Positions 1 through 17,881 of a DNA stretch of 29,295 bases are shown one piece after another. Both the position numbers and the translations under genes were made by a program. Origin of the DNA: an uncultured bacterium (GTDB taxonomy: Bacteria; Verrucomicrobiota; Kiritimatiellia; RFP12; UBA1067); NCBI GenBank assembly GCA_902779075.1, contig CACZAK010000137.1, positions 1-29,295 on the forward strand, given 5' to 3'. Position 1 is the stretch's first letter, and every line of letters begins with the position of its first letter. The notes beneath the pieces are model-generated. The model did no database searches, was not told the DNA's origin, and saw only the letters and a list, made by a program, of their open reading frames with translations.

Positions 1-766
1 TCTCCTTCATCCACTGTCCGCCCCACACGCCGGGGTCGAAGTAGGGCATCACGCGGAACGGACGCGACGCGGCGATTTCGAGTCCGCGCCGGAACGCCGC
101 ACCCGTCATCATCTTCGGCTCGGCGCCGTTCGTGTCGAGGATATAGTCCATCCTGTCATAGCGCGCGCGCTTGTGTCGGTCGAGCGCACGCCAGTCGGCG
201 AAGAAGCCGCGCCTGTAAAGGCGAAGCGCATCCTCGCCCGCGTTGTCATCGAGCCAGTTGGCGAGCCGTCCCGAACGAAAGCGCTGCTGGATCGCCCACC
301 GCGCCATGTCGGCGTACACGTAGATGTCGCATTCGGGACAGCACACCGCCGCCGCCACGCCATAGACAAGCACGACGCCCCGCGCCGCCGCGATCTTCGC
401 CCTGACGGCCTTGACCTTCGCCGGGTCGAAATAGTCCTCCACCCGCCGGTGCGACATCACGGCGAACACGCGATCGTCGCCCTGATCCGCCGCCAGCATC
501 GCACGCACCTCGTCACGCGTCTTGTTTGCCTCGCGCGTCTCGATCACCGCGTCTGGCCGAAGTGCCCCTTTTAGCGCATCCAGCACCTCGTCCTCCCACA
601 CGCCATGGTAAAGATCTACGCACACCACGCACGGTAGGGCAGTCGCCCCGCGACCGCCGCACCTCGCCCGCAACTCCGCGCCGATCGCCTCCCATCCGGC
701 AACAGCGCGGCATTCACCGCCCACTGGCACTTTTATCGCAGGGAATTTGTCGTAGTTGGATTTCAT
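1..766 (-). CDS. class I mannose-6-phosphate isomerase-like protein, 5' part (runs off the left edge)
   Basis: The first 255 codons of a minus-strand gene start at ATG 764-766 (MKSNYDKFPAIKVPV) and stay open to base 1. The visible end reads FRVMPYFDPGVWGGQWMKE. I recognise this as the conserved junction of the long (about 550-600 residue) class I mannose-6-phosphate isomerase-like proteins of Bacteroidota and relatives, which interconvert mannose-6-P and fructose-6-P. The part seen is the N-terminal extension preceding the cupin isomerase domain, so the metal-binding residues are outside the window. The start lies 16 nt after the stop of the ATPase gene and has no clear ribosome binding site, so it may be coupled to that transcript. 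Codons near residues 36-45 are supplied by an in-frame REP-like element encoding GGRGATALP between an amphipathic helix and the strand VVCVDLYHGV. Family assignment is from memory of the motif. Confidence 0.75.
   Translation of the reverse strand, partial: MKSNYDKFPAIKVPVGGECRAVAGWEAIGAELRARCGGRGATALPCVVCVDLYHGVWEDEVLDALKGALRPDAVIETREANKTRDEVRAMLAADQGDDRVFAVMSHRRVEDYFDPAKVKAVRAKIAAARGVVLVYGVAAAVCCPECDIYVYADMARWAIQQRFRSGRLANWLDDNAGEDALRLYRRGFFADWRALDRHKRARYDRMDYILDTNGAEPKMMTGAAFRRGLEIAASRPFRVMPYFDPGVWGGQWMKE
633..660 (+). repeat. REP-like palindrome inside the isomerase gene
   Basis: A 28-nt element with head GGTAGGG followed by the stem CAGTCGC / GCGACCG around a CCC loop. It differs from the other copies by one base (A for G), which makes a G-A mismatch in the stem. 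It lies inside the isomerase gene and is read through as GGRGATALP on the gene strand. Confidence 0.85.
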
Positions 767-782
767 ACAATATTGTGCTCGT

Positions 783-2210
783 TCACGAATTACCATGAGC
801 AAAAAGGTCATCAAAGGTAATCACATTCGAGAACCTTCCACTATACTTGTTTCTGAGCAGACCGTATGGAGTTATGAGAACGGCATTGACCGATTTCCGC
901 GTTCCTGTAACGGACGAGAACACAGATATTTTTCGTCGCATGTCGGCATCTGTTTTTTCATCCGGGGCGAACTCGTCCTTTGTGTACTTAATTTCGCATA
1001 TGTCGATCACGCCGTCGGCACGGTCTATCACAAGGTCTATCTGCGCGCCCTTGGGGCAACTTTCGTCGGGCGCATGTCTCCAAGAACATACGTGCGTCAG
1101 CACGCCACCAATCTGCAATGCATTCTTCAGCTGCCACAAATGCTGGAGGCACAACCTTTCAAACGCAAAACCCGCCCACGATGCCTGCATTGAAGATCCT
1201 GCCGTGTTCTGCCAGAAATTCTCGTCCGGGTTTGAGTCCTCGTTCAAATATCTCAGATGGAAAAGCGAAAAATTATCTATAAGTTGAAACACTGCATTTT
1301 TCTTTTTTTTCCCAAAAGCGACATACTTGCGCACAAAACCGCTTGTCTCAAGATCGGAAAGACATTTTGAGACCTTTCCACCATCCGCAAGCTTCAACTT
1401 CCGCAAAAGCTCTTCGCGTGTCATGCCAGACTTGACTGATGACAAGGCCGTCACTATGTTACGGTACATCGTCCCGTCTTTGAACAACGAAGCAAACAGT
1501 TCGGCGAATTCGCCCCTCAGTTTTCCCGTCTCGGCAAAGACAAGTGCATCAACATTCTGCCGAAGGCTCAAACCACGTTCCATCAAACTCCAGTAAAACG
1601 GCACTCCACCGAAAATCATGTATCCAAGCGCGATTTCCTCCCTTGAATAGGACAATCCGAGTTCATTTGCATACTCTTCGCATTCGGCAAGGCAGAACGG
1701 CTTAAGATAGATTCTGTCTGTAACCCGATTGTGAAGCCCTCCGTGGTTCTTTATGAGCTTGTTCATCATCCATGACGTGGCAGATCCACAAACGATCAAC
1801 AGCATGTCCTTACGAGCCGAGGCATAGCCGTTCCAGAAATGCTCCAAGGCGGGAACGAATTTGGATCTCCGCGTATCCATCCACGGTAGTTCATCAATGA
1901 ATACTACTTTCCGTTCCCTCTCGCACCGCTCGATCACCTTCTCCAATGCAAGAAATGCCTCTCGCCACGATTTGAGCGAAGGACAGTGCTCATATCCGTA
2001 TTTCACGAGCGAATCCCTGAAATTGAGCAGCTGCTCTGCCGTTCCGACCCCAGAAACGCCTACATGGCAAAAACAGAAATCATCATGGAATGTCTCCCTA
2101 ATTAGGTACGTCTTGCCTACGCGGCGGCGCCCATAGACGGCAACGAACTGCGCCTCAGAACGTTCTGCCGCGCACAAAAGAGACTTCCTCTCCCTATATC
2201 TTCCTACCAT
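783..2210 (-). CDS. ATP-binding protein of the DUF234 / AAA type with C-terminal nuclease-like domain
   Basis: About 475 residues. The N-terminal half is a P-loop ATPase with Walker A GRRRVGKTYL near residue 30 and Walker B VVFIDELPW near residue 105. A winged-helix-like region follows (MTREELLRKLKLADGGKVSKCLSDLETSG spans it). The C-terminal part contains IDLVIDRADGVIDICEIKY, matching the D...E-x-K core of PD-(D/E)XK nuclease-like folds typical of DUF234 proteins. Such ATPases are common in mobile or dispensable bacterial and archaeal loci, and their substrate is generally unknown. I chose the ATG at 2208-2210, because AGAGG lies 5 nt upstream, over a GTG two codons earlier that would overlap the SD. 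A strong sigma70-type promoter sits directly upstream. It is followed by the isomerase gene on the same strand. Its biological role is not established. Confidence 0.8.
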   Translation of the reverse strand: MVGRYRERKSLLCAAERSEAQFVAVYGRRRVGKTYLIRETFHDDFCFCHVGVSGVGTAEQLLNFRDSLVKYGYEHCPSLKSWREAFLALEKVIERCERERKVVFIDELPWMDTRRSKFVPALEHFWNGYASARKDMLLIVCGSATSWMMNKLIKNHGGLHNRVTDRIYLKPFCLAECEEYANELGLSYSREEIALGYMIFGGVPFYWSLMERGLSLRQNVDALVFAETGKLRGEFAELFASLFKDGTMYRNIVTALSSVKSGMTREELLRKLKLADGGKVSKCLSDLETSGFVRKYVAFGKKKKNAVFQLIDNFSLFHLRYLNEDSNPDENFWQNTAGSSMQASWAGFAFERLCLQHLWQLKNALQIGGVLTHVCSWRHAPDESCPKGAQIDLVIDRADGVIDICEIKYTKDEFAPDEKTDADMRRKISVFSSVTGTRKSVNAVLITPYGLLRNKYSGRFSNVITFDDLFAHGNS

Positions 2211-2232
2211 AGACACCTCTTGCTAGGTTTAT

Positions 2233-2321
2233 GGTGCGGAATTATATCAAAAATCCGACATTCCGACAACTATGAAATTATATCGGTGCGGAATCTGTGG
2301 TTTTCTTCCACATTCCGCACC
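2233..2321. repeat. three copies of GGTGCGGAAT around the ATPase promoter
   Basis: GGTGCGGAAT occurs directly at 2233-2242 and 2285-2294 and inverted at 2312-2321. The last two form a hairpin with extra GTGG/CCAC pairing. The first copy covers the -10/+1 region of the ATPase promoter, so the repeats could be operator sites. The 2285-2321 hairpin could also act as a terminator-like stem for the relic upstream, but it has no T-run. Confidence 0.5.
2241..2269 (-). promoter_or_regulatory. sigma70-type promoter for the ATPase gene
   Basis: On the minus strand TTGTCG (2264-2269) is separated by exactly 17 nt from TATAAT (2241-2246). Transcription would start near 2234, about 24 nt before the ATG. 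Confidence 0.7.
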
Positions 2322-2369
2322 CAAATAAACAATGTCATTTTACCTCTCGTTTTGTCCCAACCTCCGTGA

Positions 2370-2501
2370 CTAGCGCATGAAGACCAAGTATGACAGACCT
2401 TCCGACGACACCGTGAACATCTCGCTCTTGATCACTGTTCCGTCTTCCACCGTGGCCAGCTTCACCCGGCTGCCACCCATATCTGCGCTCAACGTTTTCA
2501 T
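2370..2501 (-). pseudogene. truncated ROK-family sugar kinase start (43 codons)
   Basis: A small minus-strand frame reads MKTLSADMGGSRVKLATVED and continues to a stop after SYLVFMR. The D-x-GG-S/T-x-VK-L pattern is the N-terminal phosphate-binding motif of ROK kinases (normally about 300 residues), which phosphorylate sugars such as glucose or N-acetylmannosamine. Only the first roughly 35 residues look ROK-like. The tail resembles the short hydrophobic-basic C-termini of other genes here. AAGGAAGAG lies 5 nt upstream of the ATG, and the start is 15 nt after the metallophosphoesterase stop, so it may still be translated. I read it as a 5' remnant joined to an unrelated 3' end by deletion. Confidence 0.55.
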
Positions 2502-2516
2502 GTCTGCTCTTCCTTT

Positions 2517-3506
2517 TCAGCAGTTGACCCGCACGTCGAAAAACGACCCGTCGACATTGGCGGCAACGGCGCACTGTACATGCCCCCGATCAAACGCGAA
2601 GAAGTGCTTGTGCACGTGCCCGACGAATACGCCCAACAGGTTCGGCGTGGAGAACACTGCCTCGCGGAACGCGAACGTCGTGGGCGTATGCCCGGCCTCA
2701 GGCCACTGCGGACGGCGCTCGATCTTCCAGTGGGGATCCACCTTCGCGCCCCACTCGGGATGTGCGCAGCCAGCCTCGCGCGGACCATATCCCGGCATGT
2801 AGAGCGGGATGTGCATCATGAGCGCCACCGGCTCGCCTTTCGCCGCCTCCTGCTTCCAGAATGCGAGCTGTTCCGGCAGTATCTCGTAGAGCGAGTTGTC
2901 GATGAAGACGAAACGGATGCCGTTCACCACGCGCGAGGCCATCATCGGATCGGCCCCCTGGTAGAGCGGCGCAAGGCGCTTCTTCGTCCATTCCGCGCGC
3001 AAGGCCATCTCCGTGCCAGGCAAACCTTCGTAGTGCCAGTCGTGGTTACCTGAAATGTACATCCAGTTCAACCCTGACTCGTCGAGCCGCCGTTTCACGT
3101 ACTCCACGCCCGCCTCGGACGGGAAGCTCACGATGTCGCCCACGAGCGCGAGGAAGTCCACCTTCATCTTCTTCGCCTCGGCGAGCGCGTACTCGAAACC
3201 TTCGGGAGAAGCAATCAGACGCCTTGTGCGGAAATGGAGCGCGGAGCGATAGGGTTTGGACATGCGGGCCGAATACTGTTTGAACGGCTCGCCCCGCTCG
3301 TCGTCGATGGTGAGGTGCGAATCGCCCACCACCATGAATCGGCACTTCCCTCCGAGTGACGGCATGGTGAAGCGCAGCGACTCCTTCACAGACGCGAACG
3401 AGACGCCCGGCACAGCCGGCGCCTCTGCCGCCCGCCCGCGCGGCACGGCGGCCATCGCCGCCGCGGCGGCACCCAATTTGAGCATGTTCCTTCTTGTCAT
3501 TTGCAT
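2517..3506 (-). CDS. Tat-exported calcineurin-like metallophosphoesterase
   Basis: About 329 residues. The N-terminus MTRRNMLKLGAAAAAMAAV is a twin-arginine signal sequence with an alanine-rich core. All metallophosphoesterase blocks are visible in order: GDSH near residue 60, GDIV near 120, GNHD near 150, MMHIP near 225 and GHVHKH near 290. These supply the ligands for a binuclear metal centre that hydrolyses phosphomono- or diesters. The protein is therefore probably a folded, metal-loaded periplasmic phosphatase. I chose the ATG at 3504-3506 because AAAGGA lies about 6 nt upstream. Longer upstream frames read through a GH92 relic and are not convincing. The gene is followed closely by the ROK remnant. 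Its substrate cannot be inferred. Confidence 0.9.
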   Translation of the reverse strand: MQMTRRNMLKLGAAAAAMAAVPRGRAAEAPAVPGVSFASVKESLRFTMPSLGGKCRFMVVGDSHLTIDDERGEPFKQYSARMSKPYRSALHFRTRRLIASPEGFEYALAEAKKMKVDFLALVGDIVSFPSEAGVEYVKRRLDESGLNWMYISGNHDWHYEGLPGTEMALRAEWTKKRLAPLYQGADPMMASRVVNGIRFVFIDNSLYEILPEQLAFWKQEAAKGEPVALMMHIPLYMPGYGPREAGCAHPEWGAKVDPHWKIERRPQWPEAGHTPTTFAFREAVFSTPNLLGVFVGHVHKHFFAFDRGHVQCAVAANVDGSFFDVRVNC

Positions 3507-3541
3507 GTCATATCCTTTCTTCTCGGCCATTCCACACCCTC

Positions 3542-3607
3542 TCAATGAAGGTCGGTCTGGAAGAGCCCCAGTGACGCCATCACAAACCACGCGCTCATCT
3601 GTACCTG
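3542..3607 (-). pseudogene. GH92 alpha-mannosidase relic
   Basis: The minus strand reads QMSAWFVMASLGLFQTD and then stops. This matches, nearly residue for residue, the catalytic-region block DQGQMSAWFVMASLGLFQTD of the GH92 gene at about 6400-6460. Nothing else of GH92 surrounds it, so it is a short leftover of a second GH92 copy upstream of the phosphoesterase gene. Confidence 0.7.
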
Positions 3608-3641
3608 AGCAATTGCAATGGCATCTCTTTCGTGCGTTGCG

Positions 3642-5297
3642 TCATACAGCAAAGTCAAATTCCTGTGCGACGAGTTTCTTGGGTTGCCGGCCCACGACCT
3701 TTGCCAGCAGACTCTCAACTAAACGATCCACTCTCGCCACGTCGGATTCCCCGTAAAGCCCAGCCAAGGCCGTCACATCGGCCTCGTCAAGACTACTCCA
3801 TGCTGGAATGTGGACATGCCGTAGATTCTGCGCCTGATAACGGATGCTGCCACCACGCATCTGAACCGACACGCGCCGAATCTGTTCTGTCACGAATGAG
3901 CTTCGCATCAACACGCAAAGGGCCCGCATGTTCCACGTGTCGGACGTAATCCAGTACACGTTATGGTGGGGATAGAATTGACCACGTTCGTCAAGGGCGA
4001 CATTTCCTCCGCGTTGGATGTCGGGGAGCAAAAGCTTCTCGGCCCGCAAAACCCTATAGCTGATCCTGTCTAGAGTCCTGTACCATGAGTCCGGATGCTT
4101 TTTCGCGCAGTAACGGGCCTTCAACCTCCCTGCGTGTTTTTCCAAATACGCACCCGTCTTCGGGAACTTCGACAAGTCCAGCATTTGCCTGTCATCATGC
4201 TGATCGTACGGATTGAGCATGTAACGGCTGTTCCACTCGATGCTGCCGCCTTGAATGTCCTCGGATGCGACAAGCGGGAGCAAACACGAGGCCTCAATCT
4301 CCGTATTGCGCTGTGGATCCACGTAGATTTCATCCGCACCCGAGGCAACGCCGATACCGACCAGTGTCCCAGCTCCTGATTGCTCGATTGTCGGGAAGGA
4401 ACTGGTTATAGACTCGAATCTTTCCCTTTCAGCAGAGTCAGTCGTGACCCAAGCGTCCTCGCCACCGTACCATTTTACGAACCTGTTGAGCCGCGATCCC
4501 GCAACACCCGTCCTGTAATGCCGCAGTGCATCGTCATCCAGCGACACCACTTCGCCAGAATAAGTATCCTTCCCGATATGACGATCTATCACGTAGATCG
4601 CAGGATAGGCGGACACCTCGGTCTCAAAAGGCTGGGTATGTTCCATGTTCAAGTATAACGCAACGTGGAAGGATTCGCTAATCATCCGACGCAATCGCCT
4701 GCCATAACTGCTGCGCACAAATCTGTTTGTGCAGATGAATGAAAAAACACCGCGCGGCGACAGCAATGAGAGCGACCGTTCAAAGAAAGGAACGTAGATA
4801 TCGCACCTTTCGGAGAACGTATCGTACCGGACCTTGTACGCCCGCTGTTTCTCAGGAGCAATGTTGTCAAAGCGAATGTAGGGCGGATTGCCAATCACCA
4901 CGTCAAATCTTTTCTGAAAATCATGGAGAAGAAAATCTTCGCAGCGGAACCAGCATGAAAGCAGACGCTTCACAACGTTCTTAGAACATCCTGCGGAATC
5001 CAGCCGTGCAGCGACCTCGCGTTTCACATGTGAAATGCTTTTCTCGGACACATCGAACGCAAGCAGGAACCCCTCTAACGCATCATCTTCCCAATCGGGT
5101 TCCTCTGCAATCAGCGCATCCACAATTGGCAGAACAAAAGCCCCGTCCCCGCAGCTTGGCTCCAGTACACTCAATCCCCGCCATTTACCGAAGCGTCCCG
5201 CGCGCATGACTTCGCGCATCATGTAGGAAACAACTTCGGGACGCGTGAACACTGCGCCCGTGGTCCTGTGTTCAGGAACTGGATTTCGCACACTCAT
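3642..5297 (-). CDS. type II DNA adenine-N6 methyltransferase (PaeR7I/XhoI-type partner)
   Basis: 551 residues. The AdoMet-binding motif I is VLEPSCGDGAF near residue 46 and the catalytic motif IV is NPPY (VVIGNPPYIRF) near residue 137, the signature of gamma-type N6-adenine methyltransferases. A long C-terminal region with aromatic and basic patches is the likely target-recognition part. The length is close to that of M.PaeR7I (about 530). Its ATG overlaps the stop of the endonuclease gene by 4 nt (ATGA), so the pair is translationally coupled with the endonuclease first. It should methylate the same site the endonuclease cuts, protecting the chromosome. By partner homology this is predicted to be CTCGAG with the adenine modified. 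The methyltransferase alone would not define the sequence. Confidence 0.88.
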   Translation of the reverse strand: MSVRNPVPEHRTTGAVFTRPEVVSYMMREVMRAGRFGKWRGLSVLEPSCGDGAFVLPIVDALIAEEPDWEDDALEGFLLAFDVSEKSISHVKREVAARLDSAGCSKNVVKRLLSCWFRCEDFLLHDFQKRFDVVIGNPPYIRFDNIAPEKQRAYKVRYDTFSERCDIYVPFFERSLSLLSPRGVFSFICTNRFVRSSYGRRLRRMISESFHVALYLNMEHTQPFETEVSAYPAIYVIDRHIGKDTYSGEVVSLDDDALRHYRTGVAGSRLNRFVKWYGGEDAWVTTDSAERERFESITSSFPTIEQSGAGTLVGIGVASGADEIYVDPQRNTEIEASCLLPLVASEDIQGGSIEWNSRYMLNPYDQHDDRQMLDLSKFPKTGAYLEKHAGRLKARYCAKKHPDSWYRTLDRISYRVLRAEKLLLPDIQRGGNVALDERGQFYPHHNVYWITSDTWNMRALCVLMRSSFVTEQIRRVSVQMRGGSIRYQAQNLRHVHIPAWSSLDEADVTALAGLYGESDVARVDRLVESLLAKVVGRQPKKLVAQEFDFAV

Positions 5298-6013
5298 GAT
5301 CTTGCGGACAAATACGAATAAAGGGACTTGAAGAAATTCAACGCACCCACCGACTCGCCACCGTCGCGCACGGACGCGGTCTTGCTATCGGACACGAGAA
5401 GCGCGGTCGCCGTGTAGTCGCGTTCCAGCACAAGTCGTTCGCAGAGAATCTCATATCTCCGAAGGTAACTCGTACCATGAAACACAGGAAGAGGCGGCAA
5501 GAGACTATCCGCAAGCGCAACGGCACGTTCAGAAGACGGTGAGTCCTCCAGGAAGAAAAGATAACCGAGCCACGGCGCTTCCGTCACGCCGAACACGCGC
5601 TCACGATAGGCCACCCAAAAATCACGCGACACGCCGAGGACTTCCTCCGTCCTGTTGTTGAAGTTATTGCCGAAGCTACCACTCTGCGACTTCAGTTCAA
5701 TCGCGGCAACCAACCTTCCACCCCGCATGACAACGACATCCCAGTTCTTCTGCGGCCGATAATATCCCGGAACGGGAACGGCCCTGTCGAAGAACACCTC
5801 CGTCTTCTTGAATCCAGCCTTTATGCATATTTCCTTAACGAGCCTCGCAAACCCGTCGAGGTGCCGACCACCAGTGACTTGCCCGCGTGTCCCCGCGTCA
5901 GTAACACCTCGCTTCTTTTGAGAAACCGCCTGCGACCTTCGCGTTTTCCAGTAAAACGCCGCTGCATTCGCAACCTTCTTACGAAGTTGCACTTCTGTGT
6001 ATGGGAAAGACAT
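5294..6013 (-). CDS. type II restriction endonuclease of the XhoI/PaeR7I family
   Basis: 239 residues. The central block NWDVVV...AAIELKSQSGSFGNNFNNRTEE carries the D...E-x-K catalytic core of PD-(D/E)XK nucleases. It also has the very characteristic GNNFNNRTEE stretch of the XhoI family, whose members recognise CTCGAG. Length matches the family (about 240-250). It is encoded immediately upstream of, and overlaps, the methyltransferase gene. The start ATG at 6011-6013 has no Shine-Dalgarno sequence. The only good promoter element, TGGTATAAT, ends 6 nt before it, so the mRNA may be leaderless. CTCGAG occurs at least six times in this window (for example 13706, 13889, 20874, 21506, 25474, 25525), so host sites must be methylated if the enzyme is active. 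Confidence 0.9.
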   Translation of the reverse strand: MSFPYTEVQLRKKVANAAAFYWKTRRSQAVSQKKRGVTDAGTRGQVTGGRHLDGFARLVKEICIKAGFKKTEVFFDRAVPVPGYYRPQKNWDVVVMRGGRLVAAIELKSQSGSFGNNFNNRTEEVLGVSRDFWVAYRERVFGVTEAPWLGYLFFLEDSPSSERAVALADSLLPPLPVFHGTSYLRRYEILCERLVLERDYTATALLVSDSKTASVRDGGESVGALNFFKSLYSYLSARS

Positions 6014-6019
6014 GCGGAA

Positions 6020-6028: not shown

Positions 6029-7462
6029 TTTATATGCCCCGTGTGAAATGCAAATTTGAGGAATACCGGACTGCCTTCACCCATTCAGGAATCTCCCTTG
6101 AGGCTATCAAGTGGGTTATTTGGGTTTATCTTCCGCATCCCCACTGCTTGTTCGGCTCGGATCCCATCCAGAGTTCAAGCGTACCACCCTTCAGCACTTC
6201 GCGGGCGTCAATGAGGAAGGAGTCCTGCGGCTTACCGTTCAGCACGGCACGCTGCACGTACTTGTTGGCGCGGGAGGCGTTGTGCGCCTTGATGGTGAAT
6301 GTGTCGCCGCGGCCGAAGCGTCGTCCGAGGTCGATTGTCGCCTCCTCGAAGAGCGGGCTCGCGATTTCATAAATCGGCTCCGCGCGGCAACCGCCGTCCG
6401 TCTGGAACAGTCCGAGCGACGCCATCACGAACCACGCGCTCATCTGCCCCTGGTCCTCATCGCCAAGCCACGCCGTCGAATCGCCGTAGCCGTAGTAGCG
6501 CTCCATGATCGACCGCGCCCACTTCTGCGTGTTCCACGGCTCCTTCGCCCAGTTGAAGAGGAACGCGAAGTGCATGGACTGCTGGTTGCCCTGCACCACG
6601 GGATACTTCGCGTAGTTCTCGCCGGGCGCGTTGTAGCGGAACGGACAGCTCTTCTCGAATCCCCACGTGAGCCGTTCGAGGAAGCGTTCGCGTCCGACAA
6701 TCTCGACGAGCGCCGGCACGTCCTGCGGCACGAAGTACGTGAGCTGCCAGGCGTTGCCCTCTACGTATCCCTTCCCTGAGATTCCTCCCGAGAACGTAGT
6801 CAGGCTTTTATCCCATTCGCCCTTGGAGTCCCTTCGGTGGCAGTAGCCGCTTTCGGGATTGACAGCGTTCTTCCACCACGTGCCGCGATCGGAGAACGTC
6901 TTGTACGCGGCTTCGTCGCCGATCGCCTTTGCGAACTGCCCCACGGTCCAGTCGTCGAACGAATACTCCATCGAGTTCGAGAAGGTGCCCTTGTCGCTCG
7001 GCACGTAATGGTACTTCATGTACGCGGCGAGGCTACGGTTGCCGGCAAAGCCCCGCCCCACCTTCTGCGCAGGTGTGGTCTGCATCTTCACGAACGCCGC
7101 CATCAGCTTCTTCGGATCGTATGCGCGGATGCCCATCTGCCACGCGCTCACCATCTGCGGAATCTCGTGCTCGGCCACCATCACCGGGATGTAGCGCATG
7201 CCCGCCGGACCCTTCCCGAGCCATCCGCCGGCCTCGAACAGCGCCATCTGCGACTTCACCCAGCGCGCGCTCCACTCCGGCCCCACGAGGTTCCACGCCT
7301 GGTTCAGGTTCCAGCGTCAGGATCGTCCAGCTTCTGGATTTTTCCGAACGGGTCGCTCCAGCGTCCATCGACATCGTTGAAGGTATTGCGGCAGAACGAG
7401 CGGTAGAGGTTCGTGTAGAAGCGCTTCTTCTCAAGACGATCCGCCGTGGCGATCTTCACGCG

Positions 7463-7478
7463 CCCCAGCACCCCAGCA
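7463..7478. repeat. 8-bp tandem duplication causing a frameshift
   Basis: CCCCAGCA is present twice in tandem (7463-7470 and 7471-7478). Removing one copy restores the GH92 frame as DLLGRVKIATADRL, the expected family sequence. Confidence 0.85.
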
Positions 7479-8420
7479 GGTCGTTCCACGTCGCCTCGTT
7501 GGCCGCGCGCACCTTCTCGAAGCTCCAGCCGAACGGCTCTTCGACCTCGCGCTTCAGGTTGTTCGCCGCACCCGCGATGTCCACGAACGAAATGCCCGAA
7601 CGCATCTGCACGACGGTCTTGCCCTCCGCCGGCTCGAACTCCACGTAGCAGCCGAAGTACTTCGGATTCTGCGCTGAATGTGCGCGACCTGTCCAGAGGG
7701 CGTCGTTTTCCCATCCGCCGAATTTTGCAATGTCCCGGTCAAACTCGATCACGAAGTGGACGGTGTAGAACTGGTCGGCGTCGCGGCTCCACACGTGCGT
7801 CGTATCCTGCTTGGAAAAGCCCTCGATTCGGCGCGGACCCGTCTGGCGCACGTCGCAGGCCTTGAGGACGTAATTGTATTCGCACGGCGTGAGCAGATCG
7901 ATCATCACGCGCGGCGTCTTGCCCGCCGGATACGTGTAGCGCTGAAATCCACAGCGGTCGGTCGCCGTGAGTTCGGCGAAGATGTCGTGGTCTGTGAGCT
8001 TCACGGCGTAGTACCCCGCCTTGCACACCTCGCTCGTCTTGTCGATGAACGAGCGGTAGCCGTCGGCGTGGCCCTTGATTTCGGAATCCGCGCCCATGCG
8101 GGTCTTGAGCGGACCCGTGGTCGGCATCGTGCCGAGTCCCGCCATGGTCCACTCGTGGATATGGCTGAAGCACCCAATGCTCTCGATTGAGGGATCGTAT
8201 CCGCCATCCCATACCCGCTTGCCGGGCAGGCCCTCGTTGTCGGGCGAGAGCTTCACCATGCTGAACGGCGTCCACGGACCCGGCGCGAGCATCCAGCGCG
8301 AGTGCGCCGTGCCCATGCGCGTATCGACGTACCCCGCCACGCCCGCGTCACGTTGCGGCGTACACTTGACCGTTCCTTCCCGCACACACACATCATCAAC
8401 AATCACCCGATATTCCGTAC

Positions 8421-8448
8421 GGTAGGGCGGTCGCCCCGCGACCGCCGC
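8421..8448 (+). repeat. REP-like palindrome inside the GH92 gene
   Basis: 28-nt element with head GGTAGGG and stem CGGTCGC-CCC-GCGACCG. It is read on the gene strand as AAVAGRPPY, a different frame from the copy at 633-660. Confidence 0.9.
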
Positions 8449-9304
8449 ATCCATCGGCGCTTCGAGCGAATACGCCCCGGCTTCCACACGCTGTTCCAAC
8501 GCAACCTTGCCGTCGATCTCCACGCGCACGACGGGCGCGCCCTCCAGATGCTCCACGTCAACGAGCAGCGGCTGTTTCCCGGTGCCGGGGATCAAGTAGT
8601 CACCCGCCTTCACGCTTCGCACATACGCGCCTTTGTGCGCAAGACGCACCACGGCGTCCTTCGGCCCCTCCAGCCGCACGTCGTCGAAGATCGCCCAGCT
8701 GCCCTCGATGGAGGTGATCTTGATTTCGTTCGCGCCCTCCACGATCTCGCCGTCCGCAAGGTCGAACTTCGCCGCGAACGGCTTGGCCTTCGAGAAGTCG
8801 CCCTTCATGATGGACGCGTCTCCACCGCCGACGGGCAGAACCATCTTCCGCGCCTTGCCGTTCACCGACACCTTCAGGAGGGGCCTCTCCGCCTTATGGA
8901 CATCTGCAAAGTCGATGACGAGCGTCCATGCACCGCCCGTACCTTTCTTCGCGATGTCGAAGAGGATGTTCACCTGCTGCGTGCGGCGTCCGGCGGGGCT
9001 GCCGGATCCGGCCCACTTGTCGTTGATGCCTGGAAGAACGTAGGGGAAAGACTTCTTTGCATCCGATCGTCCGATAAGGAAATAGTTGTTCTCCCAGCCG
9101 AAGTCGTGCTGCAGGAAATCGTTGTACCCACGCGGCGCAAGCGCGAACTCGTTGCCCGTGCCGTCCTTCTGTCCGATCTGCCACACGACGTGCGCATTTG
9201 CCAAAACAGAGGCCGCCGCCACAGCGGCCATCAACAAACTATGTTTCATATACCTTATTCCTTTCACCTGTTAACGCGAACACCAATCCGCGCTGTTGGT
9301 GATA

Positions 9305-11875: not shown

Positions 11876-13219
11876 ATGAACAAGAATGCAATCACCCGAG
11901 TTGCCGCAGTGGCGGCCGCCGTTGTGGCGACAGCACCCTCGTCGTCGCAAGCCATGATCCCCGAAGTGTCGGACGTCACGATGACGCAGTCGGCAACCCG
12001 CCGCGTCACCATCACCTATCGACTCTCCGACGCGCCAGCCGTCGTGACGCTGGACATCCAGACAAACGCGAACACGAGCGCGGCGGCGGACGATCCCGGC
12101 TGGACCTCGATCGGCGGCAGGAACATCTGCAACGCGCAGGGCGACGTATGGAAGAAGGTGTCCGGCAAGGATACGTACACGATCACATGGCAGCCGGACC
12201 GGGTTTGGACGGATGCTGAAGGCGAAGGCTTCAAGATTGCCGCGAACGGCGCCCGCGCCCGCGTGACCGCATGGCCCGTGGACAACACGCCCAACTACAT
12301 GGTGGTGGACATCACCGCGACGGGCGGCGCGGACACGCAGACCTACTACCCCGCCGCTGACTTCGTGCCGGGTGGCGTGACGAACAGCCTCTACAAGACC
12401 ACGACGCTCCTCATGCGCAAGATCATGGCGAAGGACGTGACGTGGACGATGGGAAGCGTTGCGGAAATCGGGCGAACCGCAGCCAGGGAAACGACGCATC
12501 AGGTTAAATTGGACGGCAACTACTACATCGGCGTCTATCTCGTCACGCAGACGCAGTGGCAGCAGATTACCGGCTACAATCCTTCCAGCGCCAAAACAGG
12601 CGGGACGATGCGCCCCGTCGAGAACGTCAGTTACACGGACGTCCGCCAGGGGAAGGGAACGGAAAAGGCCGTCGCTTCCGCTACGGGCGGCGTGTACCCT
12701 GCCGATCCATACGGGGATTCCTTTCTCGGGCTTTTGCGCACGAAGACGGGGCTCGACTTCGACCTCCCGTCCGAGGCGCAATGGGAGTTCGCGGCCCGCG
12801 CGGGGAACGGCGAGGGTTGCTGGGGCGATGGATCGGCAATCCTGAGTGCGGGCGAGGACGAGAACCTGAACCGGCTCGGGCGCTACTCCAAGAACGGCGG
12901 CACGACGATTGGCACGGCAGTCGTCGGCTCGTACGCGCCAAACGCCTGGGGACTCTACGACATGCACGGCAATGTATGGGAGTGGTGCCTCGACTGGTAC
13001 GAGGACAACATCACCACATACGGCGGTGCGGTGAACATTGACCCTGCGGCGCCTGCGAAGACGCTGTCTGGTGCGTCAGGCGCAAACCGCGTGGTGCGGG
13101 GCGGAAGTCGGTATAACGATGCGGGCGTCTGCCGGGCGGCGCATCACGACAGCTTCACTCCTGCGAACCGCAACGCCAGCTTTGGCGTCCGCGTCCTGTG
13201 CACTGCCGGATTGCGGTAA
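11876..13219 (+). CDS. secreted FGE-sulfatase-fold protein (SUMF1/EgtB/PvdO superfamily)
   Basis: 447 residues with a signal peptide (MNKNAITRVAAVAAAVVATA). An N-terminal beta-sandwich (about residues 30-130, SDVTMTQSATRRVTITYRLS) precedes the FGE fold: TWTMGS, YYIGVYLVTQTQWQQITG, RPVENVSYTDV, LPSEAQWEFAARAG, GLYDMHGNVWEWCLDWY, VVRGGS and FGVRVLC. True formylglycine-generating enzymes use a cysteine pair near the RGGS block. Here that stretch is RGGSRYNDAGVCRAAHH, without the pair, so sulfatase activation is unlikely. A structural or other oxidoreductase-like role is more plausible. SD AAAGGAAA precedes the ATG, 46 nt after the anti-sigma-like gene, so it is probably the output gene of the sigma operon. 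Confidence 0.88.
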   Translation: MNKNAITRVAAVAAAVVATAPSSSQAMIPEVSDVTMTQSATRRVTITYRLSDAPAVVTLDIQTNANTSAAADDPGWTSIGGRNICNAQGDVWKKVSGKDTYTITWQPDRVWTDAEGEGFKIAANGARARVTAWPVDNTPNYMVVDITATGGADTQTYYPAADFVPGGVTNSLYKTTTLLMRKIMAKDVTWTMGSVAEIGRTAARETTHQVKLDGNYYIGVYLVTQTQWQQITGYNPSSAKTGGTMRPVENVSYTDVRQGKGTEKAVASATGGVYPADPYGDSFLGLLRTKTGLDFDLPSEAQWEFAARAGNGEGCWGDGSAILSAGEDENLNRLGRYSKNGGTTIGTAVVGSYAPNAWGLYDMHGNVWEWCLDWYEDNITTYGGAVNIDPAAPAKTLSGASGANRVVRGGSRYNDAGVCRAAHHDSFTPANRNASFGVRVLCTAGLR

Positions 13220-13254
13220 GCATGTACGGAGCGGAAGTCGCGCCGCGCCCGAGT

Positions 13255-13283
13255 TTGACGCACGAAACGATACCTGTTATTAT
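13255..13283 (+). promoter_or_regulatory. sigma70-type promoter for the GH5-like gene
   Basis: TTGACG (13255-13260), 17-nt spacer, TATTAT (13278-13283), giving a leader of about 40 nt before ATG 13331. Confidence 0.65.
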
Positions 13284-13330
13284 ATTGCCCATCTAGGGCA
13301 TTCCAGAAAACAAATGAAAGGCAAACAAAG

Positions 13331-14455
13331 ATGAAAGAGAAAGTCATGCACGGAAAACCGAATGCGGGAAATCCGCTTTTTGCTGCGGTTTTGGGTTCTG
13401 CAGTCGCCCTCGCCGTCGCGCTGGCGGCGAGCCCCTGCGCGGCGGCGGAGAGCGCCGGGCGCTGGACTGTGGAGCGGGCGAAGGCCTGGGCGCAGGGACG
13501 CCCCTGGTACTGCGGCTTCAACCACGTACCCGCGAACGCGGCCAACGACGTGGAGATCTGGATGAAGGACACCTTCTCCCCGGAGCTCATACGCAGCGAG
13601 TTCAAGCTCGCCACGGACCTCGGCTTCAACTGCGTGCGCATCTTCCTACAGTACAAGGTGTACGAGGACGATCCCGGATGGTTCCTGTGCGCGTTCGAGA
13701 AATACCTCGAGCTTGCCCACGAGGCGAAGCTGGAGGTGATGCCTGTCTTTTTCGACGACTGCACGTTCAGCCCCAGGAGGGATCCGCACCTGGGCCGGCA
13801 GGACGATCCGATGCCGGGATGGGGGATGTGGGGATGGGTGCCGTCGCCGGGGTACACGATGGTCGTGGACTCCCGCACGCACTGGAAACTCGAGAGATAC
13901 GTCAAGGACGTCATCTCCCGCCACAAGGACGACCGCCGCATCTTCGCGTGGGACCTCTACAACGAGCCGACGTTCAAGATCGAGGAATATGCGGATTATT
14001 CGCTTGAACTCGTGCGGAAGAGCTTCCGCTGGGCGCGCGAGGTGGCGCCTTCGCAGCCGCTCACGGTCGGTACCTGGAACGGCAACAAAAAGCTGGAAGA
14101 CCTTGTGCATGCCGAAAGCGACATCATCACGTTCCACTGCTACGGGCCTGCCGATGCGACGCGCCGGAAAATCGCCGCCGACTCTCGCATGGGGCGGCCC
14201 GTGATCTGCACCGAATGGATGATGCGCAACACGGGATGCACCATCCAAGACGTGCTGGGAGTATACAAGGAGACGGGCGTGGGATGCATGCTCTGGGGGC
14301 TTGTGAACGGCAGGACGCAGACGCACGTGCCCAATGCCAAGGTCAACCTCGACTACAAGGGGCCCTGGGTGACCGACATCTTCCGCCCCGACCACACCCC
14401 CTACGACGCACGGGAAATCGAACTCATCAAGAAGGCCACCGGCAGGGCGCCATGA
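13331..14455 (+). CDS. secreted GH5-like (clan GH-A) glycosidase
   Basis: 374 residues. A basic n-region and the hydrophobic core LFAAVLGSAVALAVALAA form a signal peptide ending near AAAES. The mature part is a (beta/alpha)8 barrel: PWYCGFNHVPANA, DLGFNCVRIFLQY, WDLYNEPTF with the acid/base Glu near residue 219, and VICTEWMMR with the nucleophile Glu near residue 297. The NEP and TEW spacing fits retaining clan GH-A enzymes such as GH5 or cellulase-like mannanases and glucanases. AAAGG lies 8 nt before the ATG and the gene has its own promoter. Its stop overlaps the start of the chimeric gene (ATGA). The exact subfamily and polysaccharide cannot be set from sequence alone. Confidence 0.88.
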   Translation: MKEKVMHGKPNAGNPLFAAVLGSAVALAVALAASPCAAAESAGRWTVERAKAWAQGRPWYCGFNHVPANAANDVEIWMKDTFSPELIRSEFKLATDLGFNCVRIFLQYKVYEDDPGWFLCAFEKYLELAHEAKLEVMPVFFDDCTFSPRRDPHLGRQDDPMPGWGMWGWVPSPGYTMVVDSRTHWKLERYVKDVISRHKDDRRIFAWDLYNEPTFKIEEYADYSLELVRKSFRWAREVAPSQPLTVGTWNGNKKLEDLVHAESDIITFHCYGPADATRRKIAADSRMGRPVICTEWMMRNTGCTIQDVLGVYKETGVGCMLWGLVNGRTQTHVPNAKVNLDYKGPWVTDIFRPDHTPYDAREIELIKKATGRAP

Positions 14456-15060
14456 CAGGGATGCAAATGAACCGTCTACTCGTTCTTGCCGCCGGATTCG
14501 CGCCGATCGACGCCGGCTGGCGTTCCACGGACAGGGAGGACTATGCGTTCGGGATCTACGATCAGGAGTTCGGCCCGATGCTATCGAAACCGGCGAAGCA
14601 CCGAAGGGAAATCCTGTTCGACAAGGTGCGCGACGAGGTCACGATCCGCGACGCAGGGGAATCGGCCGACGGAAAGGAACATGAATACACGCTCCTCTTC
14701 CAGCTCGACACCACGAACGTCGTCATCTCTGCGGACGGCAGGCGCGTGCGGGCGGAATACGGTGCGGGAAAGAAGTACGCACTTGAGATGGAGATCGTCG
14801 GCTCGTACGCGCCGAACGCTTGGGGGCTTTACGATGTACATGGAAACGTGTTGGAATGGTGCCTTGACTGGTTTGCGGACAACATCACGACCTTGAATGG
14901 TGCCGTCAATACTGCGTCGGGCGCTTACCGCGTGAAACGGGGCGGGTGTTGGAACTACGCGGCGGGTCCCTGCCGATCGGCGTATCGCAGCTACGGCCCG
15001 CCAGCGTCCCGCGACAGCACCTTCGGCCTCCGCGTCGTCTGCACCGCAGGACTGCAGTAG
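14452..15060 (+). CDS. chimeric ORF: heparinase II/III-like fragment joined to an FGE C-terminus
   Basis: 202 residues from ATG 14452, which overlaps the GH5-like stop; ATG 14461 and 14467 are alternatives. Residues about 15-115 (GWRSTDREDYAFG, HEYTLLFQLDTTNVVISADG, RVRAEYGAGKKYALEME) look like the beta-sandwich part of heparinase II/III-type polysaccharide lyases. From residue about 121 the sequence switches to the C-terminus of an FGE-fold protein, VGSYAPNAWGLYDVHGNVLEW, through RVKRGGCWNYAAGPCRSAYR to LRVVCTAGLQ. That part closely matches the FGE-like protein at 12925-13216. Neither half is complete. It reads as an in-frame recombination product. There is no convincing signal peptide, so function is doubtful even if translated. 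Confidence 0.7.
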   Translation: MTGMQMNRLLVLAAGFAPIDAGWRSTDREDYAFGIYDQEFGPMLSKPAKHRREILFDKVRDEVTIRDAGESADGKEHEYTLLFQLDTTNVVISADGRRVRAEYGAGKKYALEMEIVGSYAPNAWGLYDVHGNVLEWCLDWFADNITTLNGAVNTASGAYRVKRGGCWNYAAGPCRSAYRSYGPPASRDSTFGLRVVCTAGLQ

Positions 15061-15142
15061 TACCTCCACGCGATGCCAAACAAGTAACATGCTGAAGGGC
15101 AGTCATTTTATTCAACGACAAGCTAGAACAGACAACGAAAAT

Positions 15143-15177
15143 TATCCCCAATAATGCATTTTGACCCATTGGGGATA
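15143..15177 (-). terminator. inverted repeat, likely terminator for the minus-strand GH39-like gene
   Basis: TATCCCCAAT (15143-15152) pairs perfectly with ATTGGGGATA (15168-15177) across a 15-nt loop. On the minus strand the stem is followed by ATTTT, a short T-run. It lies 130-170 nt beyond the GH39-like stop. Confidence 0.45.
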
Positions 15178-15195
15178 GTACACCCGCAAGGCCAA

Positions 15196-15230
15196 GGACG
15201 TGAAAAGTTATAATTCACGCATTCACGTCC
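15196..15230. repeat. perfect 9-bp inverted repeat
   Basis: GGACGTGAA (15196-15204) and TTCACGTCC (15222-15230) flank a 17-nt AT-rich loop. It lies between the convergent chimeric gene and GH39-like gene and could be a second terminator stem, but it has no T-run. Confidence 0.5.
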
Positions 15231-15310
15231 AGTGCTAGTTTACGACGGAGAGCTTGATCCACGGCTCGCAGGATGCGGATATTTCGCGGCCACGCTCGAT
15301 GCGGCAACGC

Positions 15311-17728
15311 TCATTTTAGGGAAGCGCTCCTTGCGCGCAGGATCTTGACGCCGCGCACCCAGAACGTGCATTTCGTGCCCAACGGGTTCGCGCCCAGGCG
15401 GATGGAAACGACATCGTCCAGCTTGTCGCAGTCGTCCAGCACGACGTAACGCTTCTCCCACCCATTCATCGGCGCGGAAAACTTGATGTGCCGGTCTGAG
15501 CCGTTTGAAAAGACGAGCATCAGGTTCTGCGTCTTGAAGTCGTTCTCCACTTTGTCCTGCACGCTCTTCACCTCGAACTCGATCAGCCTCGCCCCGGCAA
15601 GGTTTTCCTGCGGCTTCTTCAGCCTGTAGATCGGATAGAACCAGTGGTCTTTTCCGGGATCGTCCCAGGCCACATCGAAGCACACGGCCTTCTCCTTCTC
15701 GTCCCATGTTGCCGTAAACGACGAGGCGGACGTATTGCGCGCCCAGTCTCCGGGCTTCTCACACGCGAGGGGCACGCTCGTACACGACTCGATGAACTGC
15801 CGGCTGGGCGGCGTCTTCACCGACATGTGGAAGCGGCTGGAGCGCCGGCCACCGAACACGCCGACCAGTTCAAGTGCCCGGGACGGATCGCCAGCCGCCG
15901 CGAGCGTGCAATCGAACGTGGCCGGCGGCGTGCCGCGGGGTCCCAGCACAATCCGCTCCGGCAGTCCGAGAAGCGGGCCACCCACCACCTCCACGGTTCC
16001 CGTCTTTGCCGTATCGCCCATGTTCCACACCTGCACGCGCATGCGCCCCTTCTCGCCGTTCATCACGGCAACCGTCTTCTGCCCGGAGATGGAGAAGTCC
16101 TTCCTGTCCAAGTCCACGCGAATGATCACCGAAAGGTCCTCGTCCGCCCTCGGCACGTACGGCATCACCTTGCCGGGACTCAACGCCGGAACGTCCACCG
16201 CGAGGCCATGCAGACCGCTCACGTACGACGGGAAGCGCGTGGACGCGAGCGTCAGCGTCCTGTTCGTGGCCGCGACTTCGGAGCGCATGCCGCACATGTC
16301 GATGAAGCTGTACGTCCCGTCCGCGGCGGGGAGCGAGAACGTCTTCGCGTAGTCCGGCGCGGCGGACACGACGCCGTGCCGCTGCGTGTCCAGGGGCGAG
16401 ACGGACCAGTACGCGAGCGTCTGCGAGCCGTCCGGCTGCCGGAACACGTACGCCCGCAACCCCTCGCCCACGCGCAGCTCGCCCAGAAGGCGTGCGGACA
16501 CCAGCTCGCGCAACATCGCGCTCATCGCCGCATACGAGGGCTTCACCGTCCCGTCGCGGCGCTGCACGCCCCAGTCCTTCTTGCCGCCGCGCTCGTTGTA
16601 CGCGCCGAACACGAAATAGTAGTTCCGCGCCACGCCCTCCATCTGCATGGCGATCTGCGATTTCGGATAGAACTCTGCGAGCACCAGCTCCTGCTCCGGC
16701 GAATGCGCCATGTACTGCGGCATCGCGCCGGGCTTGTCAGAGTGCCCCTCCAGGTTCGTGCCGGACTCCGTCATCCAGATTGCGCGCTCGCCGACACCGT
16801 AGCGCGCGAGGAACGCGCGGAGCGTGGCGAACATCTGCGGGTAGTCGGCCAGCGCGCGGTACGTGTGGTAGTTGAACACGTCGCCGAACTTCGCGGCGTC
16901 GTTCTCGAAGAGCGCGCGGGCATAGACGCTGTCCGGCCACTGGCACAGCGCGCCGGGTAGGACGACCACGTCGGGTTTGCCGGCCTTGAGACCGAAATAC
17001 GCGGCCTTGAGTGCGGGAGCGTAGTCCCAGACTGGTTCCGGCGCGAAGCTGATGTCCTGCTCGTTCCAGAACTCCCAGTCGCCCATGCGGTTTCCGAAAG
17101 CGGCGGCGGTTTTCGAGCAGAACGTGAAGACGACGTTGAGGTCGGACGGCAGCTTCTGCAGCTTCGCGGCCCATGTCGGACAGTCGTGGAACATTCCCGA
17201 GATGAGGATGCCGCGTTCGCGGAGCAAGTCGCCGTTGTACATGTAGTCGCTGAAGTCCAGCTTGTCGGGCTGCGGATTCACGCCCGTCCAGCTCAGGCGT
17301 TCGCGCACATGCGGCATGCCCATGCGCCAGATGAGGTCGCTCACGGTGCGGAAGGTGTCGCCGCCGTTCCACGGGCACAGGTAATTCCCCTTGCTGGAAA
17401 CCCAGCTCTGCGCGGAGTCGATGGCGTAGAACGAATGATGGTCGAAGACGCGGCTCGCAGGCGGCGGTACCACGGCGAACGTGGCGTTGCCGTTGCCGCT
17501 GATGAGGCGGTAGTAGCCCGTGGGCATACGCGGAAGGACGGCGGTACCGTCCGCCCGCCACGTCCCGGACTGTTCCACGGGACGCCCCCGCCAATCGACG
17601 AGCGAGAACGATTCGCCGGGCTTCCCGCCACGCGCGACGGGCACCTCCTCGTCGGTGTACACATGCCCCGGCGCGTCAAAGGAAATCGGCAAGAGCGCAA
17701 CCGCCGTCGCAGCACAATCTCCTGTCAT
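15311..17728 (-). CDS. GH39-like clan GH-A glycoside hydrolase with C-terminal beta-sandwich domains
   Basis: About 805 residues if started at ATG 17726-17728, but the frame is open upstream into the GH95-like gene. An N-terminal beta domain (GHVYTDEEVPVARGGKPG) precedes the barrel: GMPHVRERLSWTGVNP, ILISGMFHDCPTWA, DWEFWNEQD with the acid/base Glu, FGDVFNYHTYR and IWMTESGTN with the nucleophile Glu. These fit GH39 or a near relative (beta-xylosidase or iduronidase type). After the barrel come two or three beta-rich modules, the last (FEVKSVQDKVENDFKTQNLM) resembling a carbohydrate-binding domain. The proposed start lacks a good SD, and CAATAVALLPISF looks like the remains of a signal peptide. 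I infer that a deletion removed the intergenic region and start, fusing this gene to its upstream neighbour. Confidence 0.8.
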   Translation of the reverse strand: MTGDCAATAVALLPISFDAPGHVYTDEEVPVARGGKPGESFSLVDWRGRPVEQSGTWRADGTAVLPRMPTGYYRLISGNGNATFAVVPPPASRVFDHHSFYAIDSAQSWVSSKGNYLCPWNGGDTFRTVSDLIWRMGMPHVRERLSWTGVNPQPDKLDFSDYMYNGDLLRERGILISGMFHDCPTWAAKLQKLPSDLNVVFTFCSKTAAAFGNRMGDWEFWNEQDISFAPEPVWDYAPALKAAYFGLKAGKPDVVVLPGALCQWPDSVYARALFENDAAKFGDVFNYHTYRALADYPQMFATLRAFLARYGVGERAIWMTESGTNLEGHSDKPGAMPQYMAHSPEQELVLAEFYPKSQIAMQMEGVARNYYFVFGAYNERGGKKDWGVQRRDGTVKPSYAAMSAMLRELVSARLLGELRVGEGLRAYVFRQPDGSQTLAYWSVSPLDTQRHGVVSAAPDYAKTFSLPAADGTYSFIDMCGMRSEVAATNRTLTLASTRFPSYVSGLHGLAVDVPALSPGKVMPYVPRADEDLSVIIRVDLDRKDFSISGQKTVAVMNGEKGRMRVQVWNMGDTAKTGTVEVVGGPLLGLPERIVLGPRGTPPATFDCTLAAAGDPSRALELVGVFGGRRSSRFHMSVKTPPSRQFIESCTSVPLACEKPGDWARNTSASSFTATWDEKEKAVCFDVAWDDPGKDHWFYPIYRLKKPQENLAGARLIEFEVKSVQDKVENDFKTQNLMLVFSNGSDRHIKFSAPMNGWEKRYVVLDDCDKLDDVVSIRLGANPLGTKCTFWVRGVKILRARSASLK

Positions 17729-17825
17729 CGTCAGCGACACCACCTCACCGGGCTTGAAGTCGCGCTCGAGCGTCGCCTCGCCGCTGTTGCGCGTCTTTCC
17801 GTGCATCCAGCCGGGTGGCGGCGAA

Positions 17826-17881
17826 CGGCGGTCGCGGGGCGACCGCCCTACCTCGGTAGGGACGGCACCCCGTGCCGTCCG
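17826..17881 (-). repeat. tandem pair of REP-like palindromes inside the GH95-like C-terminus
   Basis: On the gene strand an element with head GGTAGGG and arms CGGTCGC/GCGACCG (17826-17852) is adjacent to a second palindrome GGACGGCAC-GGG-GTGCCGTCC type (about 17855-17881). Together they encode roughly RTARGAVPTEVGRSPRDRR without a stop. On the plus strand the second element also begins with GGTAGGG, so the two are head to head. Confidence 0.85.

Follow-up and report, generated by a model that had tools for sequence, protein, structure and literature searches.

The 29,295-nucleotide stretch of DNA from an uncultured bacterium analysed here (the window) carries short palindromes inside three genes, and in each gene the palindrome is translated in a different reading frame. 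This raises the questions of what these elements are, how they came to lie in frame within genes and which protein may have moved them. A first-pass annotation of the window had likened them to the REP sequences moved by RAYT transposases and had proposed a protein-inserting REP family that might be undescribed.

Results

GTAG palindromes in the window and in related genomes

The main-type 27-mer, GGTAGGGCGGTCGCCCCGCGACCGCCG, occurs five times in the window, in four exact copies and one with a single mismatch (Table 1). It consists of a GGTAG tag, the hairpin GGCGGTCGC CCC GCGACCGCC and a final G. Four further 27-mers have other stems and share the common plan of GGTAG, a 9-bp stem, a 3-nt loop, 9 bp and G. 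As had been noted before, TAG is found in a single one of the six frames when the consensus is read directly. The three in-gene copies are real and are translated as GGRGATALP, AAVAGRPPY and VGRSPRDRR in minus-strand open frames, in three reading frames. At the third site, the first-pass annotation was right about the main-type copy at 17826–17852 but had taken it for a single element; the site is an abutting inverted REP pair (17826–17881). The copy at 8421–8447 is located between the CBM-like and GH92N Pfam domains of its host.

Table 1. GTAG REPs and their host genes in the window.
Feature	Position	Strand	Remarks
GTAG REP, main type, one stem mismatch	633..659	+	In frame in minus-strand isomerase-like ORF (2–766), peptide GGRGATALP
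GTAG REP, main type	8421..8447	+	In frame in minus-strand GH92 ORF (7459–9267), peptide AAVAGRPPY
GTAG REP, main type	17826..17852	-	In frame in minus-strand GH95 C-terminal region, peptide VGRSPRDRR
GTAG REP, other stem type GGTAGGGACGGCACCCCGTGCCGTCCG	17855..17881	+	Partner of 17826–17852; tail-tail dimer, GTAG ends inside
GTAG REP, main type	27263..27289	+	Within palindrome array
GTAG REP, stem type GGGCCGACC..GGGCGGCCC, one stem mismatch	27292..27318	+	Type also inside RAYT-like gene L310/L326 (G006)
GTAG REP, main type	27747..27773	+	
GTAG REP, stem type GGCCCGCTC..GAGCGGGCC	27777..27803	+	Type also flanks RAYT-like gene L305/L337 (G001)
GTAG REP, stem type GGCCGCCTC..GAGGCGGCC	27835..27861	+	Type also flanks RAYT-like gene L305/L337 (G001)
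Host gene 1, isomerase-like (label of the first-pass annotation)	2..766	-	Cut by window edge; 590 aa open frame including the REP in G001
Host gene 2, GH92	6129..9267	-	Frameshifted in window; one open frame in G006, G001, G002, G013 and G011
Host gene 3, GH95-like	17745..20237 (ORF limits)	-	Frame changes near 18,265 in window; one open frame in relatives

Chance repeats were rejected as a source: 29 kb of sequence contains five such 27-mers, four of them identical and the fifth with one mismatch, and hairpins are in excess in a close relative, where a scan of 400 kb of genome G006 detected 18 GTAG hairpins, compared with 4, 2 and 1 in Markov-resampled sequence. A known RNA family was also rejected, with no Rfam match at the gathering threshold. 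The elements have an unpaired GTAG at one end of a palindrome within the limits of the GTAG REP superfamily (stem 5–13 bp, loop 2–20), they are dispersed in many copies (at least 138 distinct copies in the 116 stretches listed), and the exact REP is present in RAYT-like genes (L307/L325, L324 and L354). The GTAG-plus-hairpin layout of bacterial REPs, previously suggested for the window elements, is thus supported.

The tail-specific protease encoded in the window is 98% identical to that of G006 (RUG10619), 97% to that of G001, 95% to that of G002 and 76% to that of G003. By their record titles, the closest relatives compared are Kiritimatiellae-type MAGs. A scan of genome contigs for the exact REP revealed it in at least 116 stretches. 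Among those listed, most come from records that bear the name Kiritimatiellae, Verrucomicrobia, Lentisphaerae or, for the RUG isolates, uncultured bacterium, and a few have other titles, e.g. a Saccharofermentans and a Bacteroidales MAG; in many cases the title refers to a gut sample from goat, sheep, yak or roe deer.

Presence, absence and replacement in orthologous genes

Orthologues of the host genes were identified by searching window bases 1–20000 in eight genomes and reading the matches. The isomerase-like gene, for the 255-aa piece of which Pfam gave no family, contains the main REP in G001 and no palindrome in G006 and G002, while G013 and G011 have GTAG REPs with different stems at the same place. 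In the GH92 gene, the REP is present in G006 and G001 and absent from G002, G013 and G011. The frameshift of this gene in the window was located between about 7286 and 7456, and its REP-carrying relatives have open frames of 1056 and 1065 aa (stop to stop). For GH95, where the REP-carrying open frames measure 785 to 801 aa (stop to stop), the inverted pair was found in two copies in G001 and in one each in G002 and G013, with the head of the partner altered in G013 and in one of the G001 copies. Two GH95 copies of G006 have an unrelated palindrome, ACAACGGGCGTCCCGCCCGTTG (window plus strand), at the same place. Because orthologues differ by presence, absence and swaps, the elements must be genuine, having been inserted or having replaced other sequence, and the peptides travel with the DNA. 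Related-MAG orthologues without the DNA element are also without the peptide, in agreement with the earlier reading of the peptides as inserted. Convergence of peptides was rejected on the grounds of the DNA-level hairpins and the palindrome-free orthologues.

Frequency in genes and reading frames

The 138 distinct exact copies in the 116 stretches listed were subjected to an in-gene test based on codon usage in 240-nt flanks. With 12 copies too near an end left out, 126 were scoreable. Thirty-six of these are in frame in genes. In seven others the frame changes on the same strand, and in two it is kept but interrupted by a stop; for 46 copies only one flank is coding, and for 35 neither flank is. 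Of 2,000 random positions drawn from the same loci, 1,994 were scored, and in 847 of these both flanks were coding in a single frame. Like for like, this is 38 of 126 REPs (0.30) versus 0.42 for random positions, so that REPs lie in genes at about 0.7 of the random expectation by this strict test. In-gene copies are common, and frame-tolerant presence within genes, proposed from the window alone, is real. All five open frames are used: GGRGATALP in 18 cases, GRAVAPRPP in 11, RRSRGDRPT in four, AAVAGRPPY in two and VGRSPRDRR in one (n = 36, non-independent rows with at least three orthologue pairs among them).

Frame keeping and exchange of palindromes at one position

The flanks of 22 of the 36 in-frame copies were searched in G001, G002, G003 and G006, and 40 places were fetched. 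Segment tables covered 25 sites. A strict edge rule, which kept a row only if its flanks aligned up to 12 nt or less from the element, covered 34 sites including two of the window; at 20 of these, at least one orthologue or paralogue was available, giving 54 comparisons in all. All 54 of these non-independent comparisons gave a net length divisible by three. This net length was 27 nt in 23 comparisons and differed from 27 nt in 31, with a range of −21 to +93. One row, the L096 site in L255 (+10, not a multiple of three), was left out as an alignment-edge effect (228 versus 219 bases there).

One and the same codon position thus differs among relatives: it may be palindrome-free or contain the same REP, a REP whose stem differs, several palindromes in an array, or a palindrome of another kind. 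The segment in the RNase R-like gene measures 27 nt in G002 and G006, 93 in G001 and 45 in G003. Another gene (L004) has 27 nt in G001, 66 nt of other palindromes in G002 and 24 nt of yet another in G006. In the L066/L104 paralogues, at least four palindrome types occur at one position.

Palindrome-free alleles under the strict rule contain 9 nt in GH92 (three genomes), 12 and 15 nt in the isomerase-like gene, 12 nt in the L020 gene and 18 nt in GT2. In the looser rows, left out by the strict rule, they differ by −9 (L092 site, G006), −3 (two L074 paralogues) and −36 (L032 site, G001). None of the palindrome-free alleles compared, in strict or looser rows, is a clean empty site; therefore, either a short piece of native sequence is exchanged for the REP, or the flanks change together with it. 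No target duplication was noticed. Synteny with the window was rejected as a source of empty sites, as long matches in the regions compared were confined to 20175–23332 and, in G006, 27691–29087.

In six of ten host proteins scanned, the REP is located within a Pfam domain envelope (Tex central region, RNB, Glycos_transf_2, GDE_C, DUF5127 and Bac_rhamnosid). In one it is at the edge of an MFS_2 stretch, and in three it lies between or outside domains. In alignments with solved relatives, the REP coincides with a part of pyrimidine nucleoside phosphorylase (1brw) that aligns weakly, and with a gap in dolichol monophosphate mannose synthase (5mlz).

RAYT-like transposase genes carry REPs of their own type

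PF01797 had matches in 16 of 16 genomes. The 36 loci from this search revealed RAYT-like genes beside other palindromes or none; under a strict HUH pattern, no exact main REP was found near a gene detected in this way, the nearest element being a variant 439 nt away in L302. Genes with REPs of their own type emerged from a search with NF047646, the curated RAYT model. This had matches in six of six genomes, none of them over its cut-off of 80 bits (best 70.6 bits), and the proteins are called RAYT-like for this reason. They have the HUH motif and the tyrosine of RAYTs: among 35 sequences, H108 and H110 are invariant and Y163, with a putative catalytic role, is nearly so. Homology to TnpA-REP 4er8 was detected by profile comparison (E 1.3e-10), and 4er8, the E. 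coli RAYT bound to a REP hairpin, is also the best PDB match of the L307 model (Foldseek E 2.8e-7, TM 0.42/0.56).

The L307 gene (G008) contains the main REP four times in frame, once with a stem mismatch, and one REP of another class. GRAVAPRPP is encoded twice before the HUH motif, GGRGATALP just after it and GRAVAPRPP again near the C-terminus. In L324, from G001, which is close to the window, there are five internal copies of the main type, of which one has a mismatch, and a single copy of another class. The link to RAYTs made by the first-pass annotation holds in that L307, L324 and L354, from relatives, carry exactly the main REP. The internal REP of L310/L326 (G006) is of the type at window position 27292, L309/L327 (G002) has REPs of a GGTTTCGACGAAACC type and its relatives, L328 (G009) has a GGCGTTCCATCGCC type, and L305/L337 (G001) is flanked by the types of window positions 27777 and 27835. 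For four of the window's five stem types, a relative has a RAYT-like gene that carries or is flanked by the same REP; for the 17855 stem type, none was found in the relatives.

Of 144 genomes sampled from the order to which G006 belongs, 39 gave a match at 1e-10. Twenty-four loci were read, yielding 21 parsed genes. One or more REP-like hairpins lie within the open frame of 13, two genes are only flanked by such hairpins, and six have none inside or nearby. These ORFs run from stop to stop and may overreach the true start, so that N-terminal hairpins may lie outside the gene. One of the three loci without a parsed ORF, L358, has REP-type peptides when read. A second group (L323/L340, L341, L343 and L377) has GGAG-headed hairpins, some of them at another internal position. 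L305/L337 and L360 are flanked by REPs in both orientations. REP decoration is not needed for the RAYT-like family, as L330 (G012) has REPs only outside the gene.

An inverted REP pair around the HUH motif

For homologues of the L307 protein, the best 120 of 301 were listed; as the query is itself decorated, decorated proteins are favoured. The 117 with the HUH pattern were kept and the three without it left out. REP-type peptides were present at site A in 102 and at site B in 104 of the 117, and at both in 96, compared with 0 and 6 of 117 for shuffled segments. In 88 of the 96, they form an inverted pair with the GTAG ends outside: the GTAG strand encodes the peptide at site A, and the opposite strand encodes the one at site B. 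The REP classes at the two sites agree in 79 of 96 proteins, against a mean of 21 and a maximum of 35 in 2,000 permutations that ignore kinship. In four classified proteins the two sites differ in class; one of these proteins (P0013) is perhaps only a point variant. Some unmatched proteins, e.g. those with VGRDDPIAP and GAMGSSRPT, fit by translation a REP class outside the dictionary used.

From 102 segmentable proteins, 22 unclassified ones were left out, and, as a partial control for kinship, sequence identity within and between site B classes was compared in the remaining 80. The difference (within minus between) is 0.38 for the 15 residues after site B and 0.29 and 0.16 for the two pre-HUH halves, while it is 0.03 to 0.06 for the N-terminal and three C-terminal segments; kinship is not fully excluded, because even these values exceed the label-shuffle maximum of 0.02 to 0.04 (200 shuffles). 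The helices neighbouring the REP sites thus vary with the REP class. In the L307 model (mean pLDDT 76, most core blocks above 90), the REP stretch of site A has low confidence (blocks 68 and 50). Site B is modelled with confidence (blocks 86 and 93) as the connection from the HUH strand to the helix that follows.

Discussion

We consider it highly probable that the palindromes are GTAG REPs of a Kiritimatiellae-type lineage which are moved by RAYT-like HUH transposases, survive in genes as frame-keeping copies, re-use their sites, and have transposase genes with a REP of their own. The mobile unit would be a 27-nt hairpin of nine codons with a GTAG tag, apparently with one transposase type per stem family; that RAYT-like proteins insert the REPs is suggested by the same-type REPs in and around their genes. 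In-frame copies would survive, mostly in the GGRGATALP and GRAVAPRPP frames, and become enzyme loops or linkers. Frame keeping probably reflects purifying selection, and the REP-bearing host proteins presumably work. Permissive sites would be used again, so that different palindromes come to lie at the same codon position among relatives. In-frame REPs of the gene's own type are part of the RAYT-like genes, and in one clade two such copies in inverted orientation flank the HUH-coding segment.

Several observations weigh against this reading. The alleles compared revealed no transposition event, and those free of a palindrome differ from a clean empty site. The RAYT-like family scores below the NF047646 cut-off, its fold match to 4er8 reaches a TM-score of only 0.42 to 0.56, six of 21 parsed RAYT-like genes have no such hairpin inside or nearby, and the relatives are metagenome assemblies by their titles. 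Alternatively, REP copies or paralogous genes might recombine homologously or undergo gene conversion and thereby alter the REPs at existing sites with no new insertion, the transposase being idle now. REPs with different stems and the same GGTAGGG head at the same site would be expected from such exchange, as would the several palindromes at one site of the L066/L104 paralogues and the mixed site A and site B classes of four RAYT-like proteins (with P0013 as a possible point variant). We nevertheless regard it as rather unlikely: it leaves the first arrival unexplained where relatives are without a palindrome, as for GH92 in G002, G013 and G011, and palindromes swapped in can be unrelated in sequence, as for GH95 in G006.

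Selection for use is less probable still. Here, the inserted peptides or RNA hairpins would be kept as domesticated linkers or, in RAYT-like genes, as an autoregulatory hairpin. The uneven use of frames (18, 11, 4, 2 and 1) could be taken in this sense, but tolerance alone also gives uneven use. The site B peptide as a predicted ordered link beside the HUH motif and the REP peptides at both sites in 96 of 117 RAYT homologues (from the best 120 of 301) point in the same direction, against which stand the orthologous enzymes without REPs or with unrelated palindromes of other lengths. An artefact of assembly or binning, or convergent peptide composition in GC-rich loops, has hardly any probability: the relatives are MAGs and two host genes are frameshifted in the window, but the alleles are shared by several MAGs in which the genes are open, and it is the same DNA hairpin, beyond the peptide, that is found across five reading frames.

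Transposition by RAYT-like proteins, our preferred explanation, bears on how REP families arise. These differ among species, and the question is how a REP and its transposase change jointly. A transposase gene with its own REP, class-linked helices and a few apparent natural chimeras make this co-change testable. Tentatively, we can picture the RAYT-like gene as carrying its substrate as a coding cassette, in which the inverted pair of its own REPs, in frame, brackets the HUH segment and is linked to two specificity-setting helices. Recombination at the REPs might then swap hairpin and recognition helix together and give birth to new REP families with matching transposases. Polymorphic in-frame copies occur in conserved enzymes (RNase R, Tex, thymidine phosphorylase, GT2 and glycoside hydrolases), and the lineage is a natural experiment on the tolerance of proteins to a mobile nine-codon insert read in five frames.

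Comparison with known systems

In the accessible parts of Di Nocera et al. (2013; PMC3733652), the GTAG superfamily, of which 24 families are published, is reported to be present in Verrucomicrobia and to have in-gene units in several species, the largest number being in Opitutus terrae, a verrucomicrobium; in recB, two Xanthomonas species have REPs that differ although they occupy roughly the same site. GTAG REPs within genes are therefore in print, and the present elements add a lineage to a known phenomenon. Of the undescribed family that the first-pass annotation had envisaged, the new host lineage remains, but not the novelty of protein insertion. The nearest precedent for the decorated transposase genes is in the legend to Figure 8 of the same article, which has repeats overlapping 5′ or 3′ ends of transposase genes. 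The available portions of PMC3733652, PMC2817692, PMC8266576 and PMC3116915 contained no mention of REPs inside RAYT genes, and a literature search on RAYT, REPIN, intragenic REP and Kiritimatiell palindromes, covering titles and the beginnings of abstracts with most subscription papers outside its coverage, yielded no report of in-frame own-type REPs in RAYT genes.

As far as the accessible text of PMC3733652 goes, the elements share with the GTAG superfamily the unpaired GTAG end, the short stem and loop, dimers with GTAG inside or outside, the association with RAYTs and in-gene units. They differ from it in their host lineage, in the variety of stem types that a single genome combines with one GGTAGGG head (a 28-nt pattern scan with 4-nt loops was used for stem variety only), in the repeated swaps of unrelated palindromes at one codon position and in own-type REPs well inside RAYT-like coding sequences. 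With the RAYT/TnpA-REP of E. coli (4er8; PMC8266576, seen in part) the proteins have in common the HUH fold, as top structure and profile match, and genes flanked by REPs in both orientations (L305/L337 and L360), whereas in-frame copies of the own REP are found in many of the present genes, and the family scores below the NF047646 cut-off. Rickettsia palindromic elements are likewise palindromes in frame in genes, but by the available account in PMC3733652 they have a CGTC tag and apparently no dedicated transposase; the elements of the window do not conform to this, the tag here being GTAG or GGAG, with RAYT-like genes of the same type. REPINs, as described in the accessible part of PMC3116915, are also inverted REP doublets with a RAYT and occupy extragenic space, whereas here an inverted pair brackets the coding segment of the transposase itself.

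Frameshifts and repeats in the window

Two of the three minus-strand host genes with in-frame REPs are frameshifted in the window, GH92 between about 7286 and 7456 and GH95 at about 18265; the genes of relatives are single open frames. The two frameshifts represent either decay or assembly error.

Repeats and palindromes of the window other than the GTAG REPs
Feature	Position	Description	Basis
Non-GTAG-REP palindromes GGCCGCG..CGCGGCC, ACAACGGGC..GCCCGTTG, GCGGGC..GCCCGC	27320-27400	Same array as GTAG REPs	Direct reading
AT-rich array	9966-10154	22-nt unit; palindromic cores resembling GGTCAGACC	Repeat search of window
Stray fragment like GH95 end	10454-10588	88% to 17982-18069, 85% to 17934-17980	Repeat search of window
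96-nt repeat pair	23295-23390 and 27502-27597	93% identical	Repeat search of window

At least two of the palindrome kinds sharing the array with the GTAG REPs were also found at in-gene sites of relatives. A core similar to that of the AT-rich array, GGTCTGACC, forms hairpins adjoining a different RAYT-like transposase gene (L296) in the related genome G006.

Repeated and REP-like peptides in other proteins

Another group of RAYT-like genes (L286, L287, L294 and L313) contains the recurring peptides GAEARHPE and AKARRSE, which may be further translated palindromes. The RAYT-like gene L358 has MQDH in place of MPDH, with the REP-type peptides GRAARPLAA and GRAARPFAA located N-terminal to this motif. 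In the thymidine phosphorylase-like protein (L106:568-1947, minus strand), a second REP-like peptide, GGALGERALP, lies within a 15-residue insert relative to the solved pyrimidine nucleoside phosphorylase 1brw.
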